From: Schlesneria paludicola DSM 18645
Lineage (GTDB): Bacteria > Planctomycetota > Planctomycetia > Planctomycetales > Planctomycetaceae
Length of the DNA stretch: 33,287 nucleotides
Direction of reading: 5' to 3'
NCBI GenBank assembly: GCA_945862235.1
Contig: CAMAYU010000050.1
Location: 1 to 33,287, forward strand
Both the position numbers and the translations under genes were made by a program. Position 1 is the stretch's first letter; every line of letters begins with the position of its first letter. The notes under the pieces are model-generated. The model was not told where the DNA came from. It did not search any database and was given only the letters and a program-made list of their open reading frames with translations. Below are positions 4,743-33,287 of the stretch, in pieces.

Positions 4743-7205
4743 ATGAAATTTGTTCGCATTCCTCAACTGATGTTGCTGGCCGTGTTGGGCCTGAGTTCGC
4801 CGAACGTCTGGGCGGTTGATCCTCCGTCTGCGGTCGAGATCGGTCAGCCTGCTGGACTGGCGATCGAGCCAGGGCGGATTGAATTGATTAACAAGCGGAC
4901 GCAGCAACAACTGCTCGTCACCGGCAAGTATTCTGGAGACGAAGTCCGCGACTTGACGGCCGCCGCGACATTCGCTTCGTCCAACCCGGCCGTTGCGAAA
5001 GTGGAAGGCTCCGTCGTGCTGCCCGTTGGGAATGGTGAGGCCGTGGTGACGGCGACCGTTGCCGGGCAGACCGCTTCGGTGCCGGTCCTCGTCAAAAACA
5101 TCGAGGCTCCGGCTCCGGTGAGTTTTAAGAACGAGACGCAGATGGCGCTGACCAAGGCGGGCTGCAACATGGGAGCTTGTCACGGCTCGCCCTCGGGGAA
5201 AGGTGGCTTCCGGTTGTCGCTGCGAGCTTACGATCCTGAGTTGGACATCATGACCGTCCGCTCGGAATTCTTCGGGCGTCGGACCAACATCATGGAACCG
5301 GGCGAGAGTCTGCTGCTCCGCAAGCCACTCATGGAAGTGGCACATGGCGGTGGCAAGCGGCTCAAAAAGGGGGACCCGGCTCACAAGGTTCTCGAACAGT
5401 GGATCGGCGAAGGACTGCGACTCGACGCCGCCACCGAACCCGATCTCGTTCGCATCGAGACCATTCCCGCTAAGCGTGTCTTGAAGCAACTCGGCACTCG
5501 CCAGCAGATCGTCGTCCTCGGCCACTTCAGCGACGGTTCGATCCGCGACGTGACGGCTCTCACTGACTTCACGACCTCCAACGAGTCGGTCGGTTCGGTC
5601 AACGTTCAAGGCTTGGTGACGAAGAACGGACGGGGTGAGACCGCGATTCTCGCTCGCTATCTGACCGGCATGTCCACGACATATCTCACATTTCTCGAAG
5701 AGGTTCCCGGCTTCGCATGGAACAATCCAGCCGAGTCCAACTTTGTCGATAGCGCCGTCTTCGAGAAGCTTAAGCAGCTTCAGATTCTTCCGTCGGATGT
5801 CTGCACAGACGACGAGTTCCTTCGCCGCGTGACGCTCGATTTGACCGGTCGCCTTCCGTCCGCAGACGAAGCGAAAGCACTGATCACCGATGTCGCCAAT
5901 CCGAACCGCCGCGCGGTCATTGTGGATCGGCTGCTCGACAGCAACGAGTTCGCTTCGTTCTGGGCACTCAAGTGGGGCGATGTCCTCCGCTCGAACAGCA
6001 AGAAGCTGAAAACGGCAGGCGTCCACAAGTTCCGCGAATGGATTTATGAGTCGGTTCGCTCCGACAAGCCGCTCGATCAGTTCGCCCGCGAACTGCTGAC
6101 AGCGAACGGCAGCGTTTTTGAGAACCCGCCCGCCAACTTCTGGCGTGCCAGCCGCGATCCGCTCGACGCGACCGAGACCACCGCTCAGCTCTTCCTTGGC
6201 GTGCGCATTCAATGTGCGAAGTGCCACAACCATCCGTTTGAACGCTGGACACAGGACAATTACTACGGCATCGCCGCCGCGTTCGCGCGCGTCGGTCGCA
6301 AGAACTCGGTCGATGCCGACGAAGAAGTGATCTTCACGCAAGCCGGTGGCGAGGTGACTCAACCGCGCACGAACAAGCAGATGAAAGTTCACCTGCTGCT
6401 CAAGGGGGATGTTGATGTTCCTGCCGATCAGGACCGCCGCACCGTCTTCGCCGCGTGGCTCACGTCGCCCGAGAACCCGTTCTTCGCGAAGAGCGTCACG
6501 AACCGCATTTGGGGCCACTTGATGGGACGCGGGATCGTCGAACCAGTCGATGACTTCCGTGACTCCAACCCACCGTCCAACGCGAGGCTGATCGACGAGC
6601 TGTCGAAGCAGTTCGTGTCGAACGGCTTCAGCCAAAAGTGGGCGATCCGCACCATCTGCAACAGCCGTACGTATCAACTCAGCAGCCGCAAGAACGGTTT
6701 CAACAAGGACGATGAAATCTACAGCTCGCACGCCAACACCCGGCTGTTGTCGGCCGAGCAACTCCTCGACGGCATCTGTGCCGTGACGAGTGTCCCCGAA
6801 CAATTCCCCGGCTTCCCGCTAGGAACCCGGGCTTGCGAACTGGCCGATCCCCCGACCGATCACTACTTCCTGAAAGTCTTCGGCCAACCTCAGCGCGAGA
6901 TGGCCTGCCAGTGCGAAAGGTCGAGCGAATCGAACCTGTCGCAAGCCCTGCAAATGATCAACGGCCCCGTCGTCCACAACAAGCTGCGAGCCGACAACGG
7001 CCGCATCGCCACGATGATCAAGGAAATGAAACCCGATGACGAAATCATCGCCTCACTCTACTTGGCTGCTCTCGCGCGAACGCCTTCAGCCGAAGAGATG
7101 ACTGCGTCCAAGACCCACATCGCTGCTCAAACCGATCGGCGCCAGGCTCTCGAAGATGTCGGTTGGGCCATCCTGAACTCGAAGGAGTTTTTGTTCCAGC
7201 ACTGA
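4743..7205 (+). CDS. Secreted Big2/DUF1549/DUF1553 protein
   Basis: An 820-residue exported protein. The ATG at 4743 is preferred because it is followed by a signal peptide (about 1-24, ending NVWA) and preceded by GGAG at 10 bases. Domains in order: a Big2-like Ig domain (about 43-118), a CNMGACH segment (141-147) with a Gly-rich stretch after it, a second Big2-like region (about 235-310), DUF1549 (about 333-520) with a CAKCH heme-type motif at 491-495 inside CAKCHNHPFERWTQDNYYG, and DUF1553 (about 555-805). This architecture is a standard planctomycete family of unknown biochemistry, often thought to be envelope cytochrome-like or polysaccharide-related proteins. Heme attachment to CAKCH is plausible but untested; in this family the motif may bind metal instead. 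The gene ends just before a strong hairpin at 7216, so it is probably the last gene of its transcript. Confidence 0.88.
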   Translation: MKFVRIPQLMLLAVLGLSSPNVWAVDPPSAVEIGQPAGLAIEPGRIELINKRTQQQLLVTGKYSGDEVRDLTAAATFASSNPAVAKVEGSVVLPVGNGEAVVTATVAGQTASVPVLVKNIEAPAPVSFKNETQMALTKAGCNMGACHGSPSGKGGFRLSLRAYDPELDIMTVRSEFFGRRTNIMEPGESLLLRKPLMEVAHGGGKRLKKGDPAHKVLEQWIGEGLRLDAATEPDLVRIETIPAKRVLKQLGTRQQIVVLGHFSDGSIRDVTALTDFTTSNESVGSVNVQGLVTKNGRGETAILARYLTGMSTTYLTFLEEVPGFAWNNPAESNFVDSAVFEKLKQLQILPSDVCTDDEFLRRVTLDLTGRLPSADEAKALITDVANPNRRAVIVDRLLDSNEFASFWALKWGDVLRSNSKKLKTAGVHKFREWIYESVRSDKPLDQFARELLTANGSVFENPPANFWRASRDPLDATETTAQLFLGVRIQCAKCHNHPFERWTQDNYYGIAAAFARVGRKNSVDADEEVIFTQAGGEVTQPRTNKQMKVHLLLKGDVDVPADQDRRTVFAAWLTSPENPFFAKSVTNRIWGHLMGRGIVEPVDDFRDSNPPSNARLIDELSKQFVSNGFSQKWAIRTICNSRTYQLSSRKNGFNKDDEIYSSHANTRLLSAEQLLDGICAVTSVPEQFPGFPLGTRACELADPPTDHYFLKVFGQPQREMACQCERSSESNLSQALQMINGPVVHNKLRADNGRIATMIKEMKPDDEIIASLYLAALARTPSAEEMTASKTHIAAQTDRRQALEDVGWAILNSKEFLFQH

Positions 7206-7215
7206 TGCCATCAAT

Positions 7216-7265
7216 CACCCTGTCGAGACGAGTGGACGTGTTCGTTCACTCGTCTCGACAGGGTG
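7216..7265 (+). terminator. Perfect 19-bp hairpin downstream of DUF1553 gene
   Basis: Arms 7216-7234 and 7247-7265 (cactcgtctcgacagggtg) are perfectly complementary with a 12-base loop, starting 10 bases after the stop codon. Only a short T-rich stretch (gtttcc) follows, so it may terminate transcription or act as a bidirectional barrier against the pseudogene arriving from the other side. Confidence 0.75.
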
Positions 7266-10525: not shown

Positions 10526-13153
10526 CTAACGGGCTGGAACCAGATGTTCCGCAGCGAGCTTCGGGAGCATCTGCTGCACGAACTGGATCGCCTCTTCGAC
10601 TTGGTCGGCTTGAATGAGGACGAGGTCACCCTGACGCATCTTTCGGAGCGTCAGTTCGATCGCCAGCATCTCGCCGCGTGTCTCGTGAATGTTCTCGGGG
10701 AGGAGCCGCTGGCCCCGTTCGAGACCCTGTCGCATGAGTCGAATCACTTCGCCATCGGCTCGGCCGCGCGTGCATTGATCTTCGTAGATCACCATCTCAT
10801 CGAAGCCGTTCGCGATCAGTTCGCCTTGCTGAATGATGTCCTCGTCACGTCGGTCGCCCGCCGCCGTGTACATGATGACGCGGCGTTCGTGAGGCATCCG
10901 GTCGAAGGCTTCGCAGAGAGCGACCAGCGCCGCCGAGTTGTGTCCGTAGTCGATCACGATCGTCGAACCACGGAACTGCACGACGTTGAATCGAGCGGGG
11001 ACTTTTTGTGGATCGTTGACGAATGTTTCGAGGGCGTGACGAATCATCTCGAAGGGGATACCGAGCGTCCAACCGGCGGCGGCGGCGGCCATGACGTTCT
11101 CAACTTGGAAGCCGATCAGTCCACCAAACGTCAGTGGCACAGCGTCGAGCAGCGCGATGCGTGCGTCCCACGAACCTTCCGCCGCCATGATGCAGTTGTT
11201 CTGCACATAGACCACCTTGCCCCCTTTGGCTCGATGAGCCGCCAGGACCGGATGATCGGGTGTCTTCGCGAAGAAGAGGACTTTGCCGGGGCAGTAATCC
11301 GCCATCGCAGCGGTGAGCGGGTCTTCGGCATTCAATACCGCGTAGCCGTGCGGCGCGACCGCTTCCACCGTGACGCGTTTCACACGAGCAAGCTGCTCGG
11401 GCGTGTCGATGCCGTTCATGCCGAGATGATCGCCGTCGGCAATGTTCGTAACGACGGCGGTGTTGCAGAGATCGAAGCCCAAGCCCTCGCGAAGGATCCC
11501 ACCGCGAGCGGTCTCCAACACAGCAGCCTCAACCACCGGATTGGCCAACACGGTGCGAGCACTCTTAGGCCCGCTGCAATCTCCCGTGTCGATGCGGCGG
11601 TCGTTGATGTACACGCCGTCGGTGCAGGTCATACCAACTCGCTTCCCCGTGCAGCGGAGCAAGTGAGCGATCAATCGCGTCGTCGTCGTTTTGCCGTTCG
11701 TTCCGGTGACGGAGACCGTCGGGATGCGACCGTCGTCCGTTTCGTTGAACATCGTGCCGACAATCGCTTCACCGACCGGACGGCCTTTGCCGTACGAGGG
11801 TTCGAGGTGCATTCGCAGGCCCGGTGCTGCATTGATCTCGACGATCACGCCCCCTTGCTGTTCGAGTGGCCGGCTGATGTCCATCGCGACGACATCGACT
11901 CCCGCGATGTCGAGGCCGACCATCCGGACGCCCTCGACGATACGCGCCGCCACCTCGGGATGAACGAGGTCGGTCACATCGGTCGCCGAACCGCCGGTAC
12001 TCAGGTTCGCGTTGCGACGGATCAGTACGACTTGCCCGGCAGCGGGGACCGAATCAATCGTCAGCCCTTGTTCGGCAAGTACTCCCTTCGCGATCTCGTC
12101 CAAGCGGAACTTACTGAGCGAGGTCGCGTGGTCTTCGCCACGGCGCGGGTCTTTGTTTGCCTCGTCGACTAGCTGCGTGATGGAGTTCCGGCCATCACCC
12201 GTCACGAGCGGAGGTTCACGCCGAGCGGCGGCAACCAATTTGTAGCCGATCACAAGCAGACGATAGTCCGCCCCGTGGGCGAACTTCTCACAGATGATTT
12301 CGCTTCCCTCTTCGATTGCAGCGGCATAAGCGGCGAGGACTTGTTCGCGGGTGTTCAGATTCACTGCGACGCCGCGTCCTTGATTTCCATCCTGCGGCTT
12401 GATGACGACCGGGACGCCGATTTCTTGAGCGGCCTCCCACGCGTCTTCACCGCTCGTAATCGGTCGCCCCTTCGGAACCGGGACGCCAATCGCGGCGAGC
12501 AAGTTTTTCGTCAGTTCCTTGTCCTGAACGATCGACTCGGCGACGGCGGAGGTTTTGTCGGTCTCGGCGGCGAGAATGCGATGCTGGCGCGAACCGTATC
12601 CAAGTTGCACCAGACTGCGATCATTCAGACGGCGCGCCGGGATGCCGCGAGCGATTGCCGCTCGGACGATCGAGCCGGTGCTGGGGCCCAGACGAATTTG
12701 TTGATCCAAGCTGCGAATCTCAGCCAGCTTGGTCACAACATCAAAGGGGCGATCGTCGATGGCGGCTCGAACCAACTCGGTCGCCACGTCCAAAGCCAAG
12801 CGTCCGACAGGCTCTTCGCGGTACTGCACGACACATTTGTATTGGCCCGGTTCTTTGGTCTCGGCGACGCGACCGAGGTTCACGGGCGAACCGGCTTGAG
12901 TCTGAAGTTCGAGCGCCGTGCGGACGAGCAACTCGGACAGGATGAGGCGTGGCGAATGGCTCGCCCCTGCGTGAACGCTGGATGGTAAAGGAGAAACAAC
13001 TCCGGCAAGCATGCGCCCCGCCCGGCCGCGAACGACATCGACATCGTTGGCGGAGAGTTGCAGATGCCGCGTGAGATCGACGGTCGTTTCAAGAACCGTC
13101 GCTTGCGACCAAATGTTTGGACCACGCAAAGCTCGCGTCGTGCCCACGTCCAT
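10526..13153 (-). CDS. cphA: Cyanophycin synthetase-like ligase, motif-complete paralogue
   Basis: An 875-residue protein, the usual length of CphA. The N-terminal domain (about 1-160) has the family signature LRGPNIWS at 9-16. The ATP-grasp domain (about 205-470) shows KPQDGNQGRG at 252-261, NANLSTGG at 381-388 and VEINAAPG near 438-445. The Mur-ligase half (about 478-870) has the P-loop GTNGKT at 484-489, ETARGGILREGLGF near 547-560, DYGHN at 735-739, GDRRD at 766-770 and RGR at 796-798. Known CphA enzymes extend an aspartate backbone with the ATP-grasp site and attach arginine through the Mur-like site, using ATP and without a ribosome. An AAGGA ribosome site lies 10 bases before the ATG. 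It follows its paralogue on the same strand after 327 bases. No cyanophycinase or isoaspartyl dipeptidase is in the window, so a different amino-acid polymer or cofactor tail is possible. Confidence 0.88.
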   Translation of the reverse strand: MDVGTTRALRGPNIWSQATVLETTVDLTRHLQLSANDVDVVRGRAGRMLAGVVSPLPSSVHAGASHSPRLILSELLVRTALELQTQAGSPVNLGRVAETKEPGQYKCVVQYREEPVGRLALDVATELVRAAIDDRPFDVVTKLAEIRSLDQQIRLGPSTGSIVRAAIARGIPARRLNDRSLVQLGYGSRQHRILAAETDKTSAVAESIVQDKELTKNLLAAIGVPVPKGRPITSGEDAWEAAQEIGVPVVIKPQDGNQGRGVAVNLNTREQVLAAYAAAIEEGSEIICEKFAHGADYRLLVIGYKLVAAARREPPLVTGDGRNSITQLVDEANKDPRRGEDHATSLSKFRLDEIAKGVLAEQGLTIDSVPAAGQVVLIRRNANLSTGGSATDVTDLVHPEVAARIVEGVRMVGLDIAGVDVVAMDISRPLEQQGGVIVEINAAPGLRMHLEPSYGKGRPVGEAIVGTMFNETDDGRIPTVSVTGTNGKTTTTRLIAHLLRCTGKRVGMTCTDGVYINDRRIDTGDCSGPKSARTVLANPVVEAAVLETARGGILREGLGFDLCNTAVVTNIADGDHLGMNGIDTPEQLARVKRVTVEAVAPHGYAVLNAEDPLTAAMADYCPGKVLFFAKTPDHPVLAAHRAKGGKVVYVQNNCIMAAEGSWDARIALLDAVPLTFGGLIGFQVENVMAAAAAGWTLGIPFEMIRHALETFVNDPQKVPARFNVVQFRGSTIVIDYGHNSAALVALCEAFDRMPHERRVIMYTAAGDRRDEDIIQQGELIANGFDEMVIYEDQCTRGRADGEVIRLMRQGLERGQRLLPENIHETRGEMLAIELTLRKMRQGDLVLIQADQVEEAIQFVQQMLPKLAAEHLVPAR

Positions 13154-13371: not shown

Positions 13372-13477
13372 CGTAGGGTAAGCGTCTCGCTTGCCCGTTT
13401 TCTGTCTTCTTTATCTCTGCTCTCAACTCACGGCTTCTCGATGAGTGAGACGGGCAAGCGAGACGGCTTACCCTACG
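13372..13477. repeat. Long imperfect palindrome between the two cphA-like genes
   Basis: Arms 13372-13397 and 13451-13477 are complementary over 26 bases with a single inserted base, enclosing a 53-base loop. The arm contains gtctcgcttgcccg. The palindrome begins 4 bases beyond the stop codon of the upstream cphA-like gene, so on the minus strand it would fold as a large hairpin before the second gene. The arm composition (GGTAAGC, TCGCTTGCC) resembles the GGCTCGCCTG cores of the repeats around fae, so it is probably another member of a palindromic family, possibly acting as an attenuator or a 3' stabiliser. Confidence 0.75.
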
Positions 13478-13480
13478 TTT

Positions 13481-16111
13481 TCAGATTACGGCCGACTCCG
13501 GCGGCTCCAGTCCCAGCAACGACTGCAGTTTCCTCACGGTCTTTGGCACCGAGGACGTTTGAATCACCAGCATCTCACCGCGTCCCAGCTCCCCCCACGC
13601 GGTATCGACGGCGGCGGTCCAGTCTCGGATTTCGTCGATCTTCCGAGTCCGAGCCACTCCCTCAACACCGGCCGCTTCGATTCCGGCCCGCAGAATTCTT
13701 GTTACGTCACCCACCGGCCGATCGACGCCGTTCTCGATCTCACACAAGATCGCTCGATCAAAGGCCCGGCCGAGCAGAACACCCTGTTTGGAGATGTCTT
13801 GATCGCGTCGGTCCTCTTCGGCCGAGTAAACCACCGTGCGTCGCTCGTGCGGAAAGTTGTCGATCGCTTCGATCAGCGCGGCGAGGGCCGACGGGTTGCG
13901 ACCGTCCGTTACGACGAGCGTTCGATCGGCTGACTCCAACACGTTGAACCGCGCCGGGTTGTCGAACAGGTTTCCTTGAAAAGCTTGCAAACCAACGGCG
14001 ATGTGAGCCGGATCAATTTTCAATCCCCAACCCGCCGCCGCCGCTGCGAGGATGTTCTCAATCTGAAAGCCGACTCGCCCCGCGTGCGTACACGGCAGCT
14101 CATCGATGGAGATCAACGACGTTTCGTGAGTCCCCTCGCACAGCATGACCTGCCGATCACGCACGACCACCGTTCTCTGGCCGGACGCGCGGTGCTGTTG
14201 AATCACGGGGTGATCGGGATCGCGGGCGAAGAACGTCACGCTCCCCGCCGACAGCTCGGCCATCTTGGCTACGAGTGGATCGGTCGCGTTGAGAACCGCT
14301 GTTCCCGTTGGCAGGACAACGTCCACCGGAGTCCGCTTCACCTTGAACATGTCTTCCGGTGAGTCAATGAACGACTTGCCGAGATGGTCGCCATCACCAA
14401 TGTTGGTGACGATCGCCACGTCGCACTTATCGACGCCAAGTCCCTCACGCAGAATGCCGCCACGCGCCGCTTCAAACACACCCGCCGTGACCAGCGGATT
14501 CAGCAGGACGTTCTTCGCACTGCGTGGTCCGGCGCAGTCCCCTTGATCGATAACGCGACCATCAATCGTAACGCCATCGCTGCACGCCGTCCCAACGTAA
14601 TGGCCCGCGGCCTTGAGGATGGACGTGACCATCCGCGTGCAGGTCGTTTTACCGTTGGTTCCCGTGATGGAAACGACCGGGACACGGCCGTTATCTTCCG
14701 GGTTGGGAAACAGTGTCGCCAAGATGGCCTCACCCACGGGACGCGGTTTTCCGGCGCTGGGCTTCAAGTGCATCAACAATCCGGGGCCGGCGTTGACCTC
14801 GACGATCACGCCCCGCTGCTCTTCCAGAGGGCGGCCGATGTCTTCCACGACGAGATCCAATCCCGCGACATCCAACCCAATCACTTGGGCCGCTTGGACA
14901 GCATGTTCGGCGATCGACGGATGCACGCTATCGGTCACATCAATCGTTGGCACGTCGTGTCGCCGAATCGTCACGCGCACTCCGGCGGCGGGAACCGACC
15001 CCGGCGTGTATCCCTGCCGCTCCAGTTCCACCGTCAGCAGCGCATCGATTTTCACTTTGCCCAGCAGGCAGTTTTCGTCCTCTCCACGCCGCGGATCGGC
15101 GTTGATCTGCGACTCCAAGAGTTCGGCGATGGTGTGTTGTCCGTCGCCAATCATTTCCGTCGCATCGCCACGTGCAGCCGCGACAAGTTTTCCGCCAACC
15201 ACGAGGAGCCGATGTTCAGAACCGGGCGCGAATCGCTCGACCAGAACACCCGATCCCTCCTTGATCGCGGCCAAGTAAGCCGTCTTGATCTGCTGTTCGT
15301 TGGTCAAGTCCATGAAGACGCCACGGCCGTGATTGCCATCTGTCGGCTTGATGACCACGGAGCCTTCGAGTTCCTTGGCCGCCTCCCAAGCATCCTCGGG
15401 GCTTTCAACTTCGCGTCCTTCAGGAACCGGAATGCCTGCCGACCGCAACAACGTCTTGGTGAGATCCTTGTCCTGAGCGATCGACTCGGCGATCGCACTC
15501 GTGTTGTCCGTCTCGGCGGTCCAGATGCGACGCTGCCTCACTCCCTGCCCGAGCTGCACGAGACTGCGGGCGTTCAAACGCCGCACCGGGATATTGCGGT
15601 TTCGCGCCGCATCCACGATCGCCATCGTGCTGGGGCCAAGGCAGACGCGATCCGCCAGCTCACGCAGCCGCTTCAAGTTTCCTTCAATATCGAAGGGCAA
15701 GTCGAACACGGCGGCCATCAACAACTCACGAGCCGTTTCGAGGCATGCTCGTCCGAGCGTCTCCTCTTGGTACCGGATGGCAACCTTGAAGAGTCCCTCC
15801 TGAGAAGTCTCCCGCGCCCGCCCATAACCGACCGGCGTTCCCGACAAAGTTTCCAGTTCGAGCGTTGTGTGTTCCAAGATGTGGGCGAGATACGTTCCCC
15901 AGCGAAGCCGCTGAAAGAATCCGCCGCGTTCCCCGACACTGCATCGATGCTCGATCATCGACGGCAGCCACTTCATCAGCCGGTCGTTGAAGCCGGGAAA
16001 CGTCGCCGACGACGAGTCCTTTAGCGGTCCCAGTTCGACCCACGCTTCCAGAACCGTGTGCCGCGACCAAATATTGGGGCCTCGCAGTGCGAGGACTTTC
16101 AGAATTCGCAT
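13481..16111 (-). CDS. Cyanophycin synthetase-like ligase, degenerate paralogue
   Basis: An 876-residue CphA-family protein that aligns end to end with the gene at 10526-13153. I use the ATG at 16111, giving MRILKVLALRGPNIWS, the canonical CphA N terminus; the open frame extends 35 codons further but those residues are unlike the family. The ATP-grasp glycine loop is intact (KPTDGNHGRG at about 255-264), as is the Mur P-loop GTNGKT at 483-488. Several motifs are changed. The NANLSTGG loop of the partner is replaced by a shorter RRHDVP at 383-388. DYGHN becomes TDGRN at 735-739, losing the histidine. GDRRD becomes EDRRD, and the RGR motif near 796 is gone. The Mur half may therefore bind ATP but not complete ligation. 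It may act as a non-equivalent partner of the next protein, use another substrate, or be decaying. The frame is fully open, which argues against simple decay. Confidence 0.85.
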   Translation of the reverse strand: MRILKVLALRGPNIWSRHTVLEAWVELGPLKDSSSATFPGFNDRLMKWLPSMIEHRCSVGERGGFFQRLRWGTYLAHILEHTTLELETLSGTPVGYGRARETSQEGLFKVAIRYQEETLGRACLETARELLMAAVFDLPFDIEGNLKRLRELADRVCLGPSTMAIVDAARNRNIPVRRLNARSLVQLGQGVRQRRIWTAETDNTSAIAESIAQDKDLTKTLLRSAGIPVPEGREVESPEDAWEAAKELEGSVVIKPTDGNHGRGVFMDLTNEQQIKTAYLAAIKEGSGVLVERFAPGSEHRLLVVGGKLVAAARGDATEMIGDGQHTIAELLESQINADPRRGEDENCLLGKVKIDALLTVELERQGYTPGSVPAAGVRVTIRRHDVPTIDVTDSVHPSIAEHAVQAAQVIGLDVAGLDLVVEDIGRPLEEQRGVIVEVNAGPGLLMHLKPSAGKPRPVGEAILATLFPNPEDNGRVPVVSITGTNGKTTCTRMVTSILKAAGHYVGTACSDGVTIDGRVIDQGDCAGPRSAKNVLLNPLVTAGVFEAARGGILREGLGVDKCDVAIVTNIGDGDHLGKSFIDSPEDMFKVKRTPVDVVLPTGTAVLNATDPLVAKMAELSAGSVTFFARDPDHPVIQQHRASGQRTVVVRDRQVMLCEGTHETSLISIDELPCTHAGRVGFQIENILAAAAAGWGLKIDPAHIAVGLQAFQGNLFDNPARFNVLESADRTLVVTDGRNPSALAALIEAIDNFPHERRTVVYSAEEDRRDQDISKQGVLLGRAFDRAILCEIENGVDRPVGDVTRILRAGIEAAGVEGVARTRKIDEIRDWTAAVDTAWGELGRGEMLVIQTSSVPKTVRKLQSLLGLEPPESAVI

Positions 16112-16206
16112 GGATTGGCACCTGCAACTCGAACGAGACCAGTGATCGGCATCCGTACTTGGCACAAGGTTCCGCCGCAAACACGAGCGGCAGGCAATCG
16201 TCGTCC

Positions 16207-16233
16207 GCAACACCAACCCGAAGCGTGAGCGAG
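16207..16233 (+). repeat. Short intergenic repeat, copy 2
   Basis: The core acaccaacccgaagcgtgag matches the copy at 1287-1315 with one substitution in 20 bases. It lies about 100 bases upstream of the degenerate cphA-like gene. Confidence 0.5.
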
Positions 16234-16774: not shown

Positions 16775-17042
16775 TTAAAACAGCCAACGCCTCCGTTCAA
16801 GAAAACATCCTCGATTAAACTCCACCCCACCCTACGATCCTCGTCAAACCCTAGCAGGGAGGAGACATGATGATCGTTTCGAGGCCGCTGGAATTATCAG
16901 AGTCCGATTGTTATCACTTCGCCCGTTGAGCGGCGGCGGTGGCGAACGGTCATCGTGCGAACCGGTCCCGCGACCGGACTCAGTTCCTCATGGTGAGGGC
17001 GAGGGCCGTCGAAAGTTATGGTTACTTGAAAAGGATCACTGC

Positions 17043-17540
17043 ATGTCGTTCTACGTTGGAGAAGCCCTCGCCGGTGATGGCAATGAGATCGCTCACATCG
17101 ACCTCCTCATCGGAGACAAGTCCGGTCCCGTCGGCACCGCGTTCTGCAACGCTCTCGCCGATCAGAAGCAAGGTCACAGCAACCTGCTGGCCGTGCTGAC
17201 CCCAAACCTCGCCGTGAAGCCAGCCACCGTCATGATCACCAAGGTCACGATCAAGGGTGCAAAGCAAGCCGTCCAGATGTTCGGTCCAGCCCAGTACGGC
17301 GTCGCCAAAGCCGTGGCCGATTCAGTTGCAGCAGGCGTGATCCCCAAGGATCAATGCGAAAAGCTGGTCATCGTCTGCGGCGTCTTCATTCACTGGGAAG
17401 CGGCCGACGACAAGAAGATCGTCGAATACAACTACCAAGCCACGATGATGGCCATCGCCAACGCGATGAAGAACTCGCCAAGTGTCGACGAAATGATCGC
17501 CAAGAAGGACACCGCCAAGCACCCGTTCTCGGGCGTTTGA
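17043..17540 (+). CDS. fae: Formaldehyde-activating enzyme
   Basis: A 165-residue protein of standard Fae length. Fae condenses formaldehyde with tetrahydromethanopterin to methylene-H4MPT in the cytoplasm, the first step of the archaeal-type C1 pathway in methylotrophs and planctomycetes. The N terminus has the strongly conserved VGEALAGDGNEIAHIDLLIG run with the active-site-region histidine at 18, then DKSGPVGTAF, LLAVLTPNL (about 58-66) and MFGPAQYGVAKAVADSV (about 80-96), all typical. The ATG at 17043 is chosen because it matches the family start and has AAAGGAT 9 bases upstream; the open frame runs further upstream but that part is unlike Fae. The gene stands alone with a terminator-like hairpin 45 bases downstream and is bracketed by inverted repeat copies. 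mtdB follows 280 bases later on the same strand. Confidence 0.96.
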   Translation: MSFYVGEALAGDGNEIAHIDLLIGDKSGPVGTAFCNALADQKQGHSNLLAVLTPNLAVKPATVMITKVTIKGAKQAVQMFGPAQYGVAKAVADSVAAGVIPKDQCEKLVIVCGVFIHWEAADDKKIVEYNYQATMMAIANAMKNSPSVDEMIAKKDTAKHPFSGV

Positions 17541-17820: not shown

Positions 17821-18681
17821 ATGAAAAACATCCTCATCCAACTCGACACCGATTCCTTGCCGAGCACCTTCGACCGCGTTGTGGCCGTTGATGCGGGGGC
17901 CGACGAACTCTTCAGCTACGGAGGCGTGTCGCCTGACAATGTCGAGTCACTTGTTCACGGAGCGATCTTCACCCGCAAGCCGTCCGACTTGATGCACACG
18001 GCGATCTATGTCGGCGGGAGCAACGTCGCGGCGGGAGAAGCTCTTTACAAGAAAGTGCTGAAGACACTGTTCGGCCCGTTTTCCGTCTCGGTCATGATGG
18101 ACTCGAACGGCTCGAACACGACGGCCGCGGCAACGGTGCTGGCTGCCGCAAAGCATCTCGACCTCACTCAGACAACGGCGGTCGTACTTGCGGGAACCGG
18201 GCCGGTTGGTTGCCGTGTCGCGCAGCTTCTGCTGAGTCAGGGAGCCACGGTTCGACTGGCTTCCCGTTCGATCGAGAACTCACGCGCGACGTGCGAGATG
18301 CTCGTGAAAGCGGCCGACACCGCGAAGCTCACCGCGTACGAATCGGCCTCGGCGGAAGGGATGGCTGCGGCAACAAATGGCGTGCAACTTGTCGTAGCGG
18401 CGGGTGCGGCGGGAGCTCAACTCATCTCGGCCGAGCAGTTTTCCGCGATCTCCACGTTGAAGTTGGCAATTGACCTGAACGCGGTCTCCCCCGCAGGCAT
18501 CGCGGGCGTTGAGGTCATGGATAAAGCGAAGGATCGAAACGGTCTGTTGTGCTACGGCGCGGTCGGAGTTGGCGGCACGAAGATGAAGATTCATCACGCC
18601 TGCATCCGCCGCCTGTTCGAGTCCAACGATCAACGCCTCGAAACGACTGCCATCTTCGATCTCGGCCGCTCACTCAGCTGA
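17821..18681 (+). CDS. mtdB: NAD(P)-dependent methylene-H4MPT dehydrogenase
   Basis: A 286-residue cytoplasmic enzyme of the MtdA/MtdB family. It oxidises methylene-H4MPT to methenyl-H4MPT, the step after Fae. The N-terminal substrate domain has LIQLDTDSLPSTFDRVVAVDAGAD (about 6-29) and HGAIFTRKP. The middle has the conserved MDSNGSNTTAAATV (about 93-106). The Rossmann fold starts with VVLAGTGPVG (GTGPVG at 125-130) followed by RLASRS (about 144-149). I call it MtdB rather than MtdA because it sits beside fae and because of its overall sequence; MtdA is the tetrahydrofolate-active form. No clear ribosome site precedes the ATG, so translation may start from a leaderless or weakly initiated message. 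Mch and the Fhc complex, needed to finish the pathway, are not in this window. Confidence 0.93.
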   Translation: MKNILIQLDTDSLPSTFDRVVAVDAGADELFSYGGVSPDNVESLVHGAIFTRKPSDLMHTAIYVGGSNVAAGEALYKKVLKTLFGPFSVSVMMDSNGSNTTAAATVLAAAKHLDLTQTTAVVLAGTGPVGCRVAQLLLSQGATVRLASRSIENSRATCEMLVKAADTAKLTAYESASAEGMAAATNGVQLVVAAGAAGAQLISAEQFSAISTLKLAIDLNAVSPAGIAGVEVMDKAKDRNGLLCYGAVGVGGTKMKIHHACIRRLFESNDQRLETTAIFDLGRSLS

Positions 18682-26918: not shown

Positions 26919-26972
26919 CTTGGCGGGGTGGTCCCGTTCAACCTGATTTGCACATCAAGCTGTGCAACTAAT

Positions 26973-27056
26973 TCGGAGTCTTCGGAGAAGCAGTGTTCTT
27001 CGGGACGTTGATACGACAGCGCCACTGTTTCTCCGAGGACTCCGAAACAGTGGCGC
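26973..27056. repeat. Overlapping, mutually exclusive inverted repeats
   Basis: Arm 26973-26995 pairs with 27023-27045 (21 of 23 positions). The second arm is shared with another, perfect 13-bp hairpin, gcgccactgtttc (27019-27031) with gaaacagtggcgc (27044-27056), so only one of the two can form. The spacer from 26919 to 27371 holds no supported gene and two more dyads (listed). This may be a palindromic repeat or an alternative-fold 3' region. Confidence 0.65.
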
Positions 27057-27200
27057 GTCTCTCGTCGTTTCCAAGTTCGCGTGACGCTTGGCCCTGAGGA
27101 GCGTTGGGGCATGGTCAAGCTGACGCCCGAACGACAAGCGGCGTTCGGGCGGGCCGAGCCGGACATCTTGCGGGAGATGACCAACGCAAGTTGAAATCGG

Positions 27201-27275
27201 GCGAGCCGCATGCCGTCAGGCTGCGGGTTTCCAGCGGGAGTCCAAGAACCCGCGGCCTGACGACACGCGGCTTGC
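27201..27275. repeat. Large imperfect palindrome
   Basis: Arms 27201-27229 and 27247-27275 are complementary at about 24 of 29 positions with a 17-base loop; the core is gccgtcaggc / gcctgacg. Probably a palindromic interspersed element of the kind scattered in planctomycete spacers. No second copy is visible in the window. Confidence 0.6.
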
Positions 27276-27317
27276 CGCTTGGTTGTTTGTGATGTCCAAG
27301 CAGGAGCTTGGCGAAAT

Positions 27318-28894: not shown

Positions 28895-31800
28895 TCATTC
28901 ACCCAGCTCGTGAATCGTGTTGTGAATCAGACCGTTGACCGGTTCGCCTTTCTCACCGGTCAGCTTGTAGTCGATCGACATGCACCACGTTGAGCGGATG
29001 TTGGGGAGTTCCAGCTGCACGGTCTTGCGGTCGGGCGAGAGAGTAACGTTCGACACTTTGAGTGTCTGCTCATCGAAGTGCTTCGAGCCGTAGCTGGCCG
29101 TTCGTTTCAGCGACCACGTTTGGACGACATAGCGTGCGCCGTCGGTCGCTGTGGCGGGATCGAGTGGCTCGGTGAATGTGAGCGTGACGCCGCGCTTCGT
29201 CGCCTTCAAATCAATCGGAGCGTGCGCCGGTTTGCCTGTCGCGCGGATGCGATAGAAACCGCCTGACTGAGTCTGGTTGCCGGCCCACGCAAACATGCCG
29301 CAGGCATAGAGGTGTCCGTCTGCTGCCGAGAACCGTCCGCGCATGATGCCAGTCGGGAATTGAGGGATCGGGAGTTCGCACATCCCTCCCTGCACAATCG
29401 TCCTGGAACTCGCTCTCTCCTTCTCCCCGCCTCCCCCTCTCTCCGTCTCCCTTTCCACAAGTTTTTCATGCGGCACGACGAAGACCTTGCCGTTGCCATA
29501 CGACAGATTGAGCAGCGAGCCTTTGAGCGGTCCCCACTTGTCGCTCGTCACCCACAAGAGTTCAGCGGGCGAGCGGTCGAAGGCGTTGGTGATCCAACAG
29601 AGTGGCGGGACCATCGCGCTGTCAGACGAGTCGGTCACGTCGGTGTAGCCGAACAGGTTGCCGTAGAAGTTCGGTTTCTCACCGGGCTTGGCGGGCGTGA
29701 CCCAGTTGATGCGGTTCTTCGGATTCCAAAAGCCCTCCTGATCGGTGACGACGAACGAGCCATCGGGGTTGAGGCAGACACCGTTCGCCGCCCGGAAGCC
29801 CGTCGCGAGGATGTCGGTCTGCGAGCCATCCTTGCTCACGCGGAGCAGCGTGCCGTGATGAGGGACCACCGCCGCCAAAGCGTGTCGTCCCGACTTCGCG
29901 TAGTAGAAGTTTCCATCAGCGTCCGTTTGCAGTCCCATCGCGAATTCATGGAAGTGCTCGGTGACTTGATGGTCGTTGTTGAAGCACTCGGTGAAATCGG
30001 TTTCGCCGTCGCCATTGAAGTCGTGCAGGATCGCAAGCTGGTCGCGACAGGTGACGTAAATCTGGCCGTTGACGATCTTCAGACCCAGCGGTTGGAAGAG
30101 GCCGTTGGCGATGCGCTGCCAAGTGAGGCGAGGGGGAGAAGGGGAGACAAGGAGAGGGGGAGACGAGGAGATTGAAGAAGATGATGGGTTCTGATGTTTC
30201 TCCCCATCTCCCCTTCTCACCGTCTTCCCCTCTTGCCTTCCTCGCAGCCCGCTCACCAGCCAAACATCTCCGTCCCACGAGCAGACCGCCGCGCGATCGC
30301 CGTCGTCGAAGAAGTCGAACCCGGTCAGACGCAACTGCGCGAACCACGGGTTGTTGTCGGGAGGGGTTAGCACATCGACTGCGAACGGCCCGTGGTCCGA
30401 GCCGGGGGTGACTTCGGTCGTGAGGACTTCCGGCCATCGTCGCGGACCACCTTTCGTGAGCGACGCCAAGTCGATCGGAGGAGCCGTCACCAGCGACACA
30501 AGTTGCTCTGCATCGACCTGCGGTTCGCGAATGGCGGTCACAGACAGGACGAACTTCAGCGGATCGTTTCCGGCGGGAAGACGGAGCACCAGCGAACCGT
30601 CCGCGCCGCCCTGCCACTTCGCACCGGCAGGTGTTGGCGAGAGTCCGGCTGCGATCGTCGTCTTCGTCTCGTCGAACGGAGGCTCACCGAATTCGCCGCG
30701 AACGGTTCCATCGTGCCCCTGCTTGGTCTCATCGCGAACGACGTTCTCCTTCGTTTCATCCAGCTTCCAGTGAGCGATCAGGTCGGCGTCATCGGCAAGC
30801 GGCTTGCCAACTTCGCCGTCCTGCATTCGCCGTTGCAGGAACCGCACGTCGGCCAGTTGGCCCACGAAATAAGTCGGATCGGGAAAGTTTGGCGACGTGA
30901 AGCCGATGCGAATCGCCTGCTTGCCAGCGTCCCCTTTCGGCTTGAGCGTCCCTTCACCATCGGGCTTGCCATCGACGAAGAAGCGGACTCGCGCGGAGTC
31001 ACGTTGCCATGTCAGGGCCACGTCATGCCAGCGGTCATCGGCGACATTGGTCTTCCCTGTGACGGCACCGACCCAGCCGATGTCGAACGTCAGTCGACCG
31101 CCTCGCACGAAGAACGACTTCCCATCGGGGCCCCACGGTCCTTCAACCGGAGCCTGACAGAAGATCGTTCCGCCCGCCTTCGTCTTGATGCGAGCAGTGA
31201 TCGTGAAGTCGCGACCGGCCAGATCGAAGTCGTCCCCCTTGGCAACAGTGAGGTGGGACTTGCCTGAGAAAATCAACGGGCCACTCGTCGCCCGCGTCTC
31301 TCCTTTCGAGGCCGCTGGTCGAACGGCGAGCAACGCGACCTCACCAAGGGGCGAACGCGCCTTGGCATCGGCGTCGATACCGATCGTTTCAACAACCGCC
31401 TCGCGCGACGGATGCGTCGCCACCTTGAGCAGCATCTCATTAGCTCGCGGCCCGACGTTGAAGGTCCGCGTGAAGACCGCCTGCGAGTCGGGGCTAACGG
31501 CTCGATCAGACTTCAACGAGATTGCAGACTGAGGATGCGACGTGACGAAAGCGCCCGGCATTTCGAACACGTCAGTCCGACCGACCGAGTAAGAAATGAT
31601 GGCCTGATCGCCGTGCTGATACAGCCCGCGATACCGGCCCCACGTGCGTGGTAACGGCCCGTACCGACGGTCATCGCGACCGAGGACACGCAGTTCGTCA
31701 AACGTTCCGGTCTCGGGGTTCGCCCAACCGGGACCGCTCGGGTTGGCAAAGGCGACATCGCCGGAGACGCGCGGATGAATCTGATGCCGCCCATCGAAGT

Positions 31801-33193
31801 TGATGCCGTGCCAGTCGATGAAGGCGGGAGAGGGCGAATGGGGGACAGGAAGAGGGGGAGATGAAGGAAGACGTTTCGATTTCGCCGTCTCTTTCTCGCT
31901 GTCTCCCTTGCTCCCCTTCTCCCTCTCGTCTTCCGCTCGGCTCCACGCCGCCGAGACCCTCAGCGTGTCATGGTCAAACGTCATCCAATGCCGTCCGCGT
32001 GAGACGCCTCCCGGCCCCAGATCGAGCCGCATGGCGATCCCCTTCTGTGCGAAGTTCTTTCCATCCGTACCGACCTCATACGTCGCCATCAAGTACGGGC
32101 CGTAGTTCATCGCCGACCACGGCTCGAAGTTGGACGGAGCCGGTCCGCGCGTTGATCCCTTCGGCAGTGAGGCAAGATACGCCTCGTCGATCTTCACCCA
32201 CTGAGTCGGGTTGTGCGGCTTGAGGTACGTTTCGCGGACGTAGTGAATCACGTCGTACTTCTGCTGCGGGACCATCCACGTCTGAGGAGTCATCAGCCCG
32301 AAGCCGTGAGTCAGCGTCTGATACATCTTCCACGGCTCGGCCCCATTCTTGAACTTCCCTTCGGCGAACTTCAGTGATGTCGGCAACGATCCCGGCTGCT
32401 CCTTGGTGCCGTGGCAGTTGATACAGAGCCGGTTGTAGATCGCCTCACCGCGTTGAAACGATTTGTCATCTAGCTCGCGCAGCATCCCGGCGTGGTCGAT
32501 CTGCTGCTCGTACTCCGGGAGCCGATACGTGATGAGCGACGCCGCTGGCTGAAGCTGCTTCGCCCGTTCAGGCCCACCTTCGGCGATCTCGACCAGGTAG
32601 CGAACAAGGTCGAGAAACTGCGCCCGCGACGCCAGAGCATTCACTTGCCCGGCTGGCATGATCGAAGTCTTGCCGTTCACTTGCTCGTCGATCTGTGACT
32701 TGGAGAGCGTGACCAGGCCTCCCCCTTGGCCCAACGCTTGCGACACGTCGCGCAGCACGAGCTTGTCCGCGTTCTCTTCCACGAACAGCCCCGTCACGGT
32801 CTTGCCGTCGGCCATTTGAACGACCACTGGCTCAAACCCCTTCTTGATGACCTTCGAGGGAGCCAAGATCGACTGGACAATCGCTTCCGCCAGCGCGGCC
32901 GGAGTCACTGCCGCACTCGTGTCGATCTTGGCTAGATCAGGACCGAGTGTGAGCGAAGAAGAAGTCGCAGGCAGGCTGGCCACCTGCCCCACGGCGTGGC
33001 ATTTCGCACACGCGAGAAATGGCTGATGAAACAGAATCGCCCCGCGCTGCGGATCGCCTTCCGACCGAGCCGCCTTCGCCAACGAGGTGACTCCCTCGGA
33101 CACAAGCTGCTCTTGGAGCGGCGTCTGCCCACGCCCCACATTTACCAACCCCCAAGTCAACGCCAGACAGCACACCACGCAGCGCAACAACAT
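28895..33193 (-). CDS. Giant secreted CxxCH heme-binding protein with LamG-like domain
   Basis: A 1432-residue exported protein. I use the ATG at 33193 (GAGGGG 7 bases upstream), which opens a signal peptide (LLRCVVCCLALTWGLVNVGRG); the frame begins earlier. Two c-type heme motifs are visible: CAKCH at 62-66 in a c-type domain with GPDLAKI, and CINCH at 257-261 (the second preceded by GEAIYNRLC, followed by HGTKEQPGSLPT). A region from about 345 (MNYGPYLMATYEVG, RHWMTFDHDTLRV, FIDWHGINFDGRHQIHP) matches the DUF6797-type planctomycete family. A LamG/concanavalin-like fold lies near 645-820 (FTITARIKTKAGG, HWKLDETKENVV). A beta-propeller-like, PVC-type heme-protein C-terminal part follows (NGLFQPLGLKIVNGQIYVTCRDQ, HEFAMGLQTDADGNFYYAKSG). 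Three low-complexity insertions interrupt conserved blocks at about 417-456, 983-1023 and 1245-1261. Function unknown; probably a periplasmic redox or polysaccharide-binding protein. Confidence 0.9.
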   Translation of the reverse strand: MLLRCVVCCLALTWGLVNVGRGQTPLQEQLVSEGVTSLAKAARSEGDPQRGAILFHQPFLACAKCHAVGQVASLPATSSSLTLGPDLAKIDTSAAVTPAALAEAIVQSILAPSKVIKKGFEPVVVQMADGKTVTGLFVEENADKLVLRDVSQALGQGGGLVTLSKSQIDEQVNGKTSIMPAGQVNALASRAQFLDLVRYLVEIAEGGPERAKQLQPAASLITYRLPEYEQQIDHAGMLRELDDKSFQRGEAIYNRLCINCHGTKEQPGSLPTSLKFAEGKFKNGAEPWKMYQTLTHGFGLMTPQTWMVPQQKYDVIHYVRETYLKPHNPTQWVKIDEAYLASLPKGSTRGPAPSNFEPWSAMNYGPYLMATYEVGTDGKNFAQKGIAMRLDLGPGGVSRGRHWMTFDHDTLRVSAAWSRAEDEREKGSKGDSEKETAKSKRLPSSPPLPVPHSPSPAFIDWHGINFDGRHQIHPRVSGDVAFANPSGPGWANPETGTFDELRVLGRDDRRYGPLPRTWGRYRGLYQHGDQAIISYSVGRTDVFEMPGAFVTSHPQSAISLKSDRAVSPDSQAVFTRTFNVGPRANEMLLKVATHPSREAVVETIGIDADAKARSPLGEVALLAVRPAASKGETRATSGPLIFSGKSHLTVAKGDDFDLAGRDFTITARIKTKAGGTIFCQAPVEGPWGPDGKSFFVRGGRLTFDIGWVGAVTGKTNVADDRWHDVALTWQRDSARVRFFVDGKPDGEGTLKPKGDAGKQAIRIGFTSPNFPDPTYFVGQLADVRFLQRRMQDGEVGKPLADDADLIAHWKLDETKENVVRDETKQGHDGTVRGEFGEPPFDETKTTIAAGLSPTPAGAKWQGGADGSLVLRLPAGNDPLKFVLSVTAIREPQVDAEQLVSLVTAPPIDLASLTKGGPRRWPEVLTTEVTPGSDHGPFAVDVLTPPDNNPWFAQLRLTGFDFFDDGDRAAVCSWDGDVWLVSGLRGRQEGKTVRRGDGEKHQNPSSSSISSSPPLLVSPSPPRLTWQRIANGLFQPLGLKIVNGQIYVTCRDQLAILHDFNGDGETDFTECFNNDHQVTEHFHEFAMGLQTDADGNFYYAKSGRHALAAVVPHHGTLLRVSKDGSQTDILATGFRAANGVCLNPDGSFVVTDQEGFWNPKNRINWVTPAKPGEKPNFYGNLFGYTDVTDSSDSAMVPPLCWITNAFDRSPAELLWVTSDKWGPLKGSLLNLSYGNGKVFVVPHEKLVERETERGGGGEKERASSRTIVQGGMCELPIPQFPTGIMRGRFSAADGHLYACGMFAWAGNQTQSGGFYRIRATGKPAHAPIDLKATKRGVTLTFTEPLDPATATDGARYVVQTWSLKRTASYGSKHFDEQTLKVSNVTLSPDRKTVQLELPNIRSTWCMSIDYKLTGEKGEPVNGLIHNTIHELGE
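29411..29456. repeat. Pyrimidine-rich half element inserted in frame (C)
   Basis: A 46-base run almost wholly C and T on the plus strand, with no complementary purine arm nearby. It encodes the charged segment ERETERGGGGEKERASS between VVPHEKLV and IVQGG. Intact relatives, as I recall the family, run directly between these blocks. It resembles one arm of the elements at 30125 and 31823. Confidence 0.6.
30125..30245. repeat. Purine/pyrimidine palindromic element inserted in frame (B)
   Basis: A purine-rich arm (30125-30170, with gagggggagaagggg) and a pyrimidine-rich arm (30200-30245, with catctccccttctc) are imperfectly complementary around a 29-base loop. It encodes the Arg/Gly then Ser/Pro-rich segment between DVWLVSGL and LTWQRIANGLFQ, blocks that are normally adjacent in this family. 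Confidence 0.75.
31823..31934. repeat. Purine/pyrimidine palindromic element inserted in frame (A)
   Basis: A purine-rich arm (31823-31869, gggagagggcgaatggggg) faces a pyrimidine-rich arm (31887-31934, ctccccttctccctctcg) around an 18-base centre; complementarity is imperfect. It encodes a segment of Glu/Lys/Asp then Ser/Pro between SAAWSR and FIDWHGINFDG, in the same reading frame as the gene. Same composition and frame bias as element B. Confidence 0.75.
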
Positions 33194-33287
33194 CGAAAAC
33201 CCCTCAAGCACCGGTTCGCTTCGCCCCGTACGAAGCATGGACTTGAAGGTAACGAGCCTTCGCATCGGTGTCGCGTTGGCAAGAGGA

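Follow-up and report, generated by a model that had tools for sequence, protein, structure and literature searches.

Probable in-frame insertions of a tandem-unit hairpin repeat in large protein-coding genes of a Schlesneria-related planctomycete

Introduction

A family of Rickettsia palindromic elements (RPEs) is defined by copies that align along their length, and the cyanobacterial STRR sequences are tandem short G-rich units spread across the genome. In the parts of the RPE reports on which we draw (Ogata 2000, 2002), these elements are in-frame palindromes in many unrelated genes, with several families per genome. The sections of Di Nocera 2013 (PMC3733652) used here describe GTAG and CGTC REPs, which have short stems of 5-13 or 8-9 bp plus a GTAG or CGTC tag, as intragenic in genes for DNA repair, DnaE2 and UvrA among them, report different REPs at about one recB site in two Xanthomonas species, and include planctomycetes and Opitutus (PVC) among the genomes. 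G-rich heptameric repeats of Nostoc and Xanthomonas are under-represented in coding regions, according to the cited sections of PMC4692102, and in nematomorph mitochondria the arms of coding palindromes are perfect copies that specify conserved residues, according to those of PMC6649704.

Here we describe a hairpin repeat with three segments in a single gene of a Schlesneria-related planctomycete. The window is the whole stretch of DNA that was analysed, 33,287 nucleotides of contig CAMAYU010000050.1; the genome to which it belongs is designated G000 and was compared with a set of 14 congeners. We propose the name AGA-octamer hairpin for the element, which has the form [AGANNNGG]n-AGA, loop, TCT-[CCNNNTCT]n.

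Results

The host gene lies in an ORF at 28895-33265 on the reverse strand, from which 1432 residues are read without a stop from the ATG at 33193 (Table 1). A preliminary description of this DNA had claimed in-frame palindromic segments in the 1432-residue protein and this was borne out, A and B being hairpins and C a half element, all three in frame with the host gene. On the coding strand, A and B run from a purine arm through a loop to a pyrimidine arm, while C, at ∼29411-29456 with a motif match at 29422-29444, is a purine arm alone. The arms of A are 34 nt long and 74% complementary around a loop of 32 nt; those of B are 42 nt long and also 74% complementary, a value which rises to 79% over the inner 34 nt. 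Folding as RNA, the check that had been proposed, gave z values against 200 dinucleotide shuffles of -2.48 for A and -5.50 for B and 0.12 for C, which is therefore only a half element, as had been claimed. Scanned in steps of 40 nt for ≥34 or ≤6 purines, the whole window has its longest runs of strong purine or pyrimidine bias at these three segments, and the sole further run to pass this criterion is at 13385-13424. The encoded peptides are charged or hydrophilic first and Ser/Pro-rich after. AlphaFold2 predicts the inserts with low pLDDT, flanked by better-predicted strands, the low value arising partly because one aligned sequence alone has each insert.

Table 1. Coordinates of the host gene, its inserts and related hairpins, and in-frame hosts in other genomes
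Feature	Position	Strand	Details
Host gene, Cytochrome_CBB3 / DUF6797 / Laminin_G_3 protein, 1432 aa	28895..33193	(-)	ORF 28895-33265, ATG at 33193
Insert A, full purine/pyrimidine hairpin, residues 418-457	31823..31942	(-)	arms 31894-31927 and 31828-31861
Insert B, full purine/pyrimidine hairpin with 8-bp units, residues 984-1022	30128..30244	(-)	arms 30199-30240 and 30130-30171
Insert C, purine-rich half element, residues 1246-1266	29396..29458	(-)	without second arm
GGGGTCAGGTGGTTCAAAGTTCATTTT-family copies, L154 (G000:C10)	335-433, 1123-1219, 1509-1607, 3460-3557, 4985-5083		
∼7-bp-unit in-frame hairpins	L358 2762-2843; L296 18020-18092; L298 2226-2302; L307 1234-1338; L406		
In-frame hosts outside G000			G395: UvrA and radical-SAM/UPF0004 protein; G187: NuoL and KdtA; G392: PSCyt2

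Elsewhere in the window, four more strong inverted repeats of other families are located at 7216-7265, 13383-13465, 26964-27054 and 27200-27276. As judged by eye from the translations, the adjoining long ORFs at 10526-13153 and 13481-16216 resemble a cyanophycin-synthetase-type ligase pair, the ORF at 16908-17540 a formaldehyde-activating enzyme and its neighbour at 17821-18681 methylene-tetrahydromethanopterin dehydrogenase.

Homologues covering the insert sites in the alignment numbered 88 for A, 93 for B and 93 for C. The inserts were missing from them, as had been expected, with no purine/pyrimidine-like (R/Y-like) repeat or hairpin scoring at least 15 at the sites (0/88, 0/93 and 0/93), and the contrary outcome, distant homologues sharing the segments at the same sites, did not occur. 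Relative to the median length in homologues, the inserted stretches are 40 aa compared with 4 at A, 39 with 6 at B and 21 with 3 at C. At site B, a 31-aa loop is present in four congeners and a 65-aa loop in one distant homologue, neither with a strong hairpin. As some homologues have longer loops, the insertions lie at length-variable loops, and all three sites are, on the evidence of the alignment, indel-prone loops of variable length across the family. Thus, the anticipated clean gaps are seen as extra residues at the three sites, and "clean" was too strong a word for loops of variable length.

In the genome of the window, a loose motif gave 25 matches (control 4); in the 14 congeners it gave zero to two each, seven in total compared with 16 in the controls, i.e. 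below control. Seven hairpins (C29, C43, C52, C89, C229 and inserts A and B) and two halves (C214 and insert C) were kept. All nine copies are in frame and their hosts are large ORFs, 880-1432 aa in length, that encode PSCyt, PSD, DUF7133 or DUF6797 domains. Left out of this count were C6:15532 (a short run without a second arm), C10:45480 (a different sort of repeat, in which the pyrimidines come first), C52:19325 (without a hairpin), C35:24359 (another type) and C189:9151 (a single 14-mer without a partner). A second hairpin pattern run on G000 gave no additional copy, its lone extra match being C35:24359. The preliminary description had predicted further copies in the genome. These exist in other genes, so that the opposite outcome, no further copies, did not occur; they are few, however, and none was found to be intergenic in G000 among the seven hairpins and two halves.

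The copies on C43, C52 and C89 break the PSD1 domain at one common profile position (62-67). PSD1 has 99 matches in G000, ∼85 loci once 14 split pairs are merged by eye. The same loop contains hairpins of other families on C4 and C72, with scores of 23.5 and 14.5, the latter falling just below the threshold of 15 used elsewhere, and inserts on C35 and C94 from which a strong hairpin is absent. On C151 (L409), a PSD1 gene undergoes a frame change at the common loop, adjoining a TCAACC-type low-complexity run, and no strong hairpin is present in that loop (score 8). In addition to the copy in its PSD1 domain, the C52 gene contains an in-frame hairpin from a different family. Its first site scores 19.0 in G000 compared with a best of 7.5 in the 13 congener orthologues that cover the site, none of which has a hairpin there, and its second site scores 22.5 compared with a best of 7 in 14 congener orthologues.

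Hairpin density was determined by inverted-repeat score in twenty 20-kb stretches of G000, a non-random sample of 400 kb taken mostly from the starts of the largest contigs, and in ten stretches from each of two congeners. Strong hairpins numbered 108 in G000, or 27.0 per 100 kb, and in the congeners 8 in 200 kb (4.0 per 100 kb) and 12 in 193 kb (6.2). Chance palindromes were rejected as a source, with 42 strong hairpins observed in 111 kb, partly picked for elements, compared with 0.4 after codon shuffling. Several palindromic repeat families have multiplied in this Schlesneria-like genome, the AGA-octamer hairpin being one of them. With genes called by a simple script, 9 of the 108 hairpins lie inside called genes, 8 across a gene end and 91 outside, in a sample that is 82% coding. 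Purine/pyrimidine hairpins of G000 lie inside genes in 7/7 cases when identified by pattern, compared with 9/108 of the other hairpins (p 2.6e-7), and in 5/5 cases at an equal hairpin threshold (p 1.4e-5). Although the two groups of hairpins were found by different means, this comparison supports a preference of the element for genes in G000. No gene preference was detected in a second genome, G332 (2/14 vs 9/88, p 0.65), in which two purine/pyrimidine hairpins lie inside genes, 11 outside and one partially inside.

Other hairpin families were also encountered. Five hairpins of one family (GGGGTCAGGTGGTTCAAAGTTCATTTT...), with loops partly alike, occur within 5 kb on L154, and a long palindrome with 79-nt arms at L152 36-194 is related to them. 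Further tandem-unit hairpin families (GGTTGAG, GGATTGC, GTCGAGA and similar ∼7-bp units) stand in frame in called genes.

The arms of the AGA-octamer hairpin are tandem 8-bp units, AGANNNGG on one side and CCNNNTCT on the other, in which NNN of AGANNNGG is mostly CAA or GGG, and the ends are AGA...TCT. The defined ends that had been predicted are fairly sharp, AGA being outermost at 42 of the 50 ends of 25 G332 hairpins, with two ends extending with GG. Loops were compared in 26 and arms in 25 G332 hairpins from fetched stretches, a subset of those behind the 268 overlapping pattern matches in that genome. The loops are unrelated save for weak pairs, two of which score at least 9 compared with 0.2 in shuffles. 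Agreement of mirrored NNN triplets in G332 is 0.349 within elements and 0.309 between them (p 0.19); in the other genomes, pooled in a way that may inflate the result, it is 0.282 within and 0.203 between (p 0.0135). The possibility that the arms are fold-back copies of each other is therefore unsupported in G332 and weakly supported in the pooled genomes. On L238, a contig from a viral collection, two copies have homologous arms and loops and different flanks, and the G332 hairpins C17:112471 and C17:119435 have an inverted loop stretch in common. These two pairs suggest that some copying of whole elements occurs. Most hairpins look separately made or without their former loop kinship. A second viral-collection contig, L239, contains two hairpin-like repeats (5880-6030 and 6690-6800) adjoining an AGA-octamer hairpin; as judged by eye, these repeats have a different purine unit, of the GGAG(T/G/A)TA type.

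Stop-freedom of the arms in six frames was established in part: of 19 R/Y hairpins scored, all have an open left arm and 16 have both arms open, rare TAG or TAA triplets shutting some frames. Whole R/Y hairpins, loop included, have a mean of 4.5-5.1 open frames compared with 2.5-2.9 for intergenic hairpins of other families in G000 and G332. Stop-freedom alone does not explain the position of the hairpins, because the equally open R/Y hairpins of G332 are mostly intergenic and because, among other families sampled in G000, an intragenic position goes with no greater openness of the arms (4.44 open frames compared with 4.48 for intergenic arms).

The motif is patchy within the class. Among 397 genomes drawn from it, 50 contain the 14-mer GGGAGACARGGAGA, 31 with one match, 5 with two and 14 with at least three. 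With the pattern reversed as a control, 16/397 genomes gave matches, to a maximum of two each and none reaching three, and single 14-mer matches may therefore be chance. The highest counts, in G332 (104), G022 (53), G395 (40), G319 (27), G238 (19) and G187 (11), belong to different genera, save for G319 and G187, which are in one. A looser hairpin pattern gave 268 overlapping matches in G332 compared with 2 in the control. Places were listed in G000 with one motif and in other genomes only with at least two, and therefore do not constitute an unbiased count. In-frame hairpins in unrelated genes (UvrA, NuoL, KdtA, radical-SAM/UPF0004 and PSCyt2) score 19-30; the radical-SAM/UPF0004 protein of G395 is presumably MtaB-like. 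In NuoL of G187, residues 202-241 stand opposite one single residue of a solved chain. The prediction of copies both intergenic and intragenic was confirmed in other genomes. An AcrB-type copy in G238 scores 5, too low for a strong single hairpin, with its arms 126 nt apart, above the loop limit. In a cyanobacterium, the CyRepA1 gene of a Rippkaea plasmid contains an in-frame 9-bp-unit relative of the motif with a weak hairpin (9.0, P 0.02).

The element is also in frame in the DnaE2-type polymerases of G392, G199 and G404. Pfam assigns these to DNA polymerase III alpha and nothing finer, and the DnaE2 label is one that we assume from sequence features; DnaE1-like matches form a separate group at 32-33%. 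In genus g44, 12 genomes were searched and the loop site was read in nine. Six of the nine alleles, from six species, contain a strong hairpin with scores of 16-28.5, equalled by 0/300 mononucleotide shuffles. Their arms belong to four families: three species have purine/pyrimidine octamers, and the GAGGGGC, GGAGGAG and TGTAGCCC types occur in one species each. The remaining alleles are that of G405, with a weak hairpin (8), and two with a 9-residue loop only. A single stop codon occurs in the DnaE2-type matches of each of three genomes, G400, G353 and G404.

Discussion

The three segments are probably in-frame insertions, two complete and one half, of a short hairpin repeat whose family has multiplied in the genome. 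The anatomy of the element, its presence here and not in the 14 congeners, its absence from aligned orthologues and the in-frame position of all copies found in G000 are observed directly. Insertion would be blind to gene and frame, and intragenic copies would persist only if in frame within a tolerant loop. Surviving arms would be translated as a hydrophilic Gly/Asp/Lys/Glu/Arg-rich and then Ser/Pro-rich peptide outside the fold, and no function need be supposed for the host protein. The lone PSD1 gene frame-broken at the common loop, on C151, lacks a strong hairpin and so lends frame-blindness no support. No transposase or other mobiliser tied to the element was found from counts of Y1_Tnp, the REP-associated tyrosine transposase, in 20 genomes. 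Y1_Tnp is present in 20/20, with 1-18 each, and a dose effect was rejected, as by eye these counts do not follow element number. The preliminary description had spoken of a mobile element; the behaviour resembles that of RPEs, as this implies, but mobility is undemonstrated, with the loops of 26 G332 hairpins unrelated save for weak pairs and arms that are not inverted copies there.

Alternatively, the hairpins could be assembled in place, loops gaining purine octamers before template switching, repair or recombination adds an inverted arm, its units taken from a pool present across the genome, with the pairing register selected or enforced and the arms not mutual copies. The unrelated G332 loops, the independence of the NNN triplets of the arms in that genome, the existence of half elements (insert C and C214), the variable length of the sites in relatives and the four hairpin families housed by one g44 DnaE2-type loop are all in keeping with such assembly. 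It accounts less readily for hairpins at unrelated sites being alike in length and in their AGA...TCT ends, or for the L238 copies, which have arms and loop in common but not their flanks, and the G332 inverted loop pair, and no intermediate was present among the orthologues compared; we regard assembly in place as possible but doubtful. It is unlikely that a hairpin-writing process, with no transposon, is at work in planctomycetes, in which the two arms flanking a unique loop would be drawn independently from a small set of octamer words, word families would switch between species and permissive loops would be re-used (the DnaE2-type loop in g44, PSD1 in G000), proteins repeatedly gaining disordered segments.

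Selection within genes for a functional nucleic-acid structure, whether an attenuator, pause site, mRNA stability element or G-quadruplex, would fit the strong RNA folding of insert B (z -5.50) and the formation of G-quadruplexes in vitro by the Nostoc/Xanthomonas G-rich heptamer repeats, as given in the cited sections of PMC4692102. This is very improbable, however, as the structure is missing from the aligned homologues and the 13 C52 orthologues and its positions vary between host families. Rfam returned no model at gathering score, and 33 of 34 sub-threshold matches were miRNA models; membership of an Rfam family was accordingly rejected. Ordinary drift of low-complexity loops with accidental palindromes is scarcely credible: the host loops are tolerant and variable in length, as drift would require, but the excess of strong hairpins over codon-shuffled sequence in the partly picked 111 kb and the occurrence of one unit alphabet across genes and genomes that are unrelated stand against it.

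Insertion of the hairpin repeat may provide a route by which large, putatively exported planctomycete proteins acquire disordered loops. The g44 DnaE2-type loop, with hairpins of four families in six of nine alleles, and the PSD1 loop of G000 make the origin of the inserts testable by close-strain comparison.

The AGA-octamer hairpin is like the RPEs, as portrayed in the cited parts of the RPE reports, in consisting of in-frame palindromes in unrelated genes, with several families per genome and hosts that are apparently whole. It differs in its arms of tandem 8-bp units, its unrelated loops and its phylum. It would appear to work like an RPE, the two being likened by behaviour and not by RPE sequence. 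Its copies do not align along their full length as those of an RPE family do, having a common unit consensus in the arms and, in 26 G332 hairpins, loops unrelated save for weak pairs. The comparison with RPEs made in the preliminary description thus holds for in-frame occurrence in unrelated genes but not for lengthwise alignment of the copies. To the GTAG/CGTC REPs, within the sections of PMC3733652 used, the likeness is in intragenic copies in DnaE2 and UvrA genes and different repeats at one site, and the difference is in arms of ∼30 bp compared with short REP stems. Membership of these REPs was rejected, as the GTAG/CGTC tag words occur no more than 14 nt from an end in 6/25 G332 hairpins, compared with 7/25 (0.28) expected by chance. 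As it lacks the tag and differs in build, the element is taken to be a variant of this kind of repeat.

The Nostoc/Xanthomonas heptamers have tandem short G-rich units across the genome in common with the element but the cited sections of PMC4692102 do not describe them as in-frame hairpins with two arms within proteins. Nematomorph mitochondria likewise have long inverted repeats within protein-coding sequence, in the part of PMC6649704 used, whereas the AGA-octamer arms lie in variable loops and are not mutual copies in G332. With regard to MITEs, which have terminal inverted repeats with target-site duplication, inverted ends are present here, and the orthologues are too diverged to give an exact empty site. 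No title or abstract opening describing the AGA-octamer hairpin was found in the open-licence literature. The preliminary description knew of no such element in planctomycete heme proteins; intragenic REPs in DnaE2 and UvrA were already known from the cited sections of PMC3733652. In-frame palindromes in conserved proteins of Rickettsia and intragenic REPs in other phyla, as far as the cited sections describe them, were known before; what is new is a structurally different element doing likewise in planctomycetes, in repair, respiratory and large PSD-type proteins.
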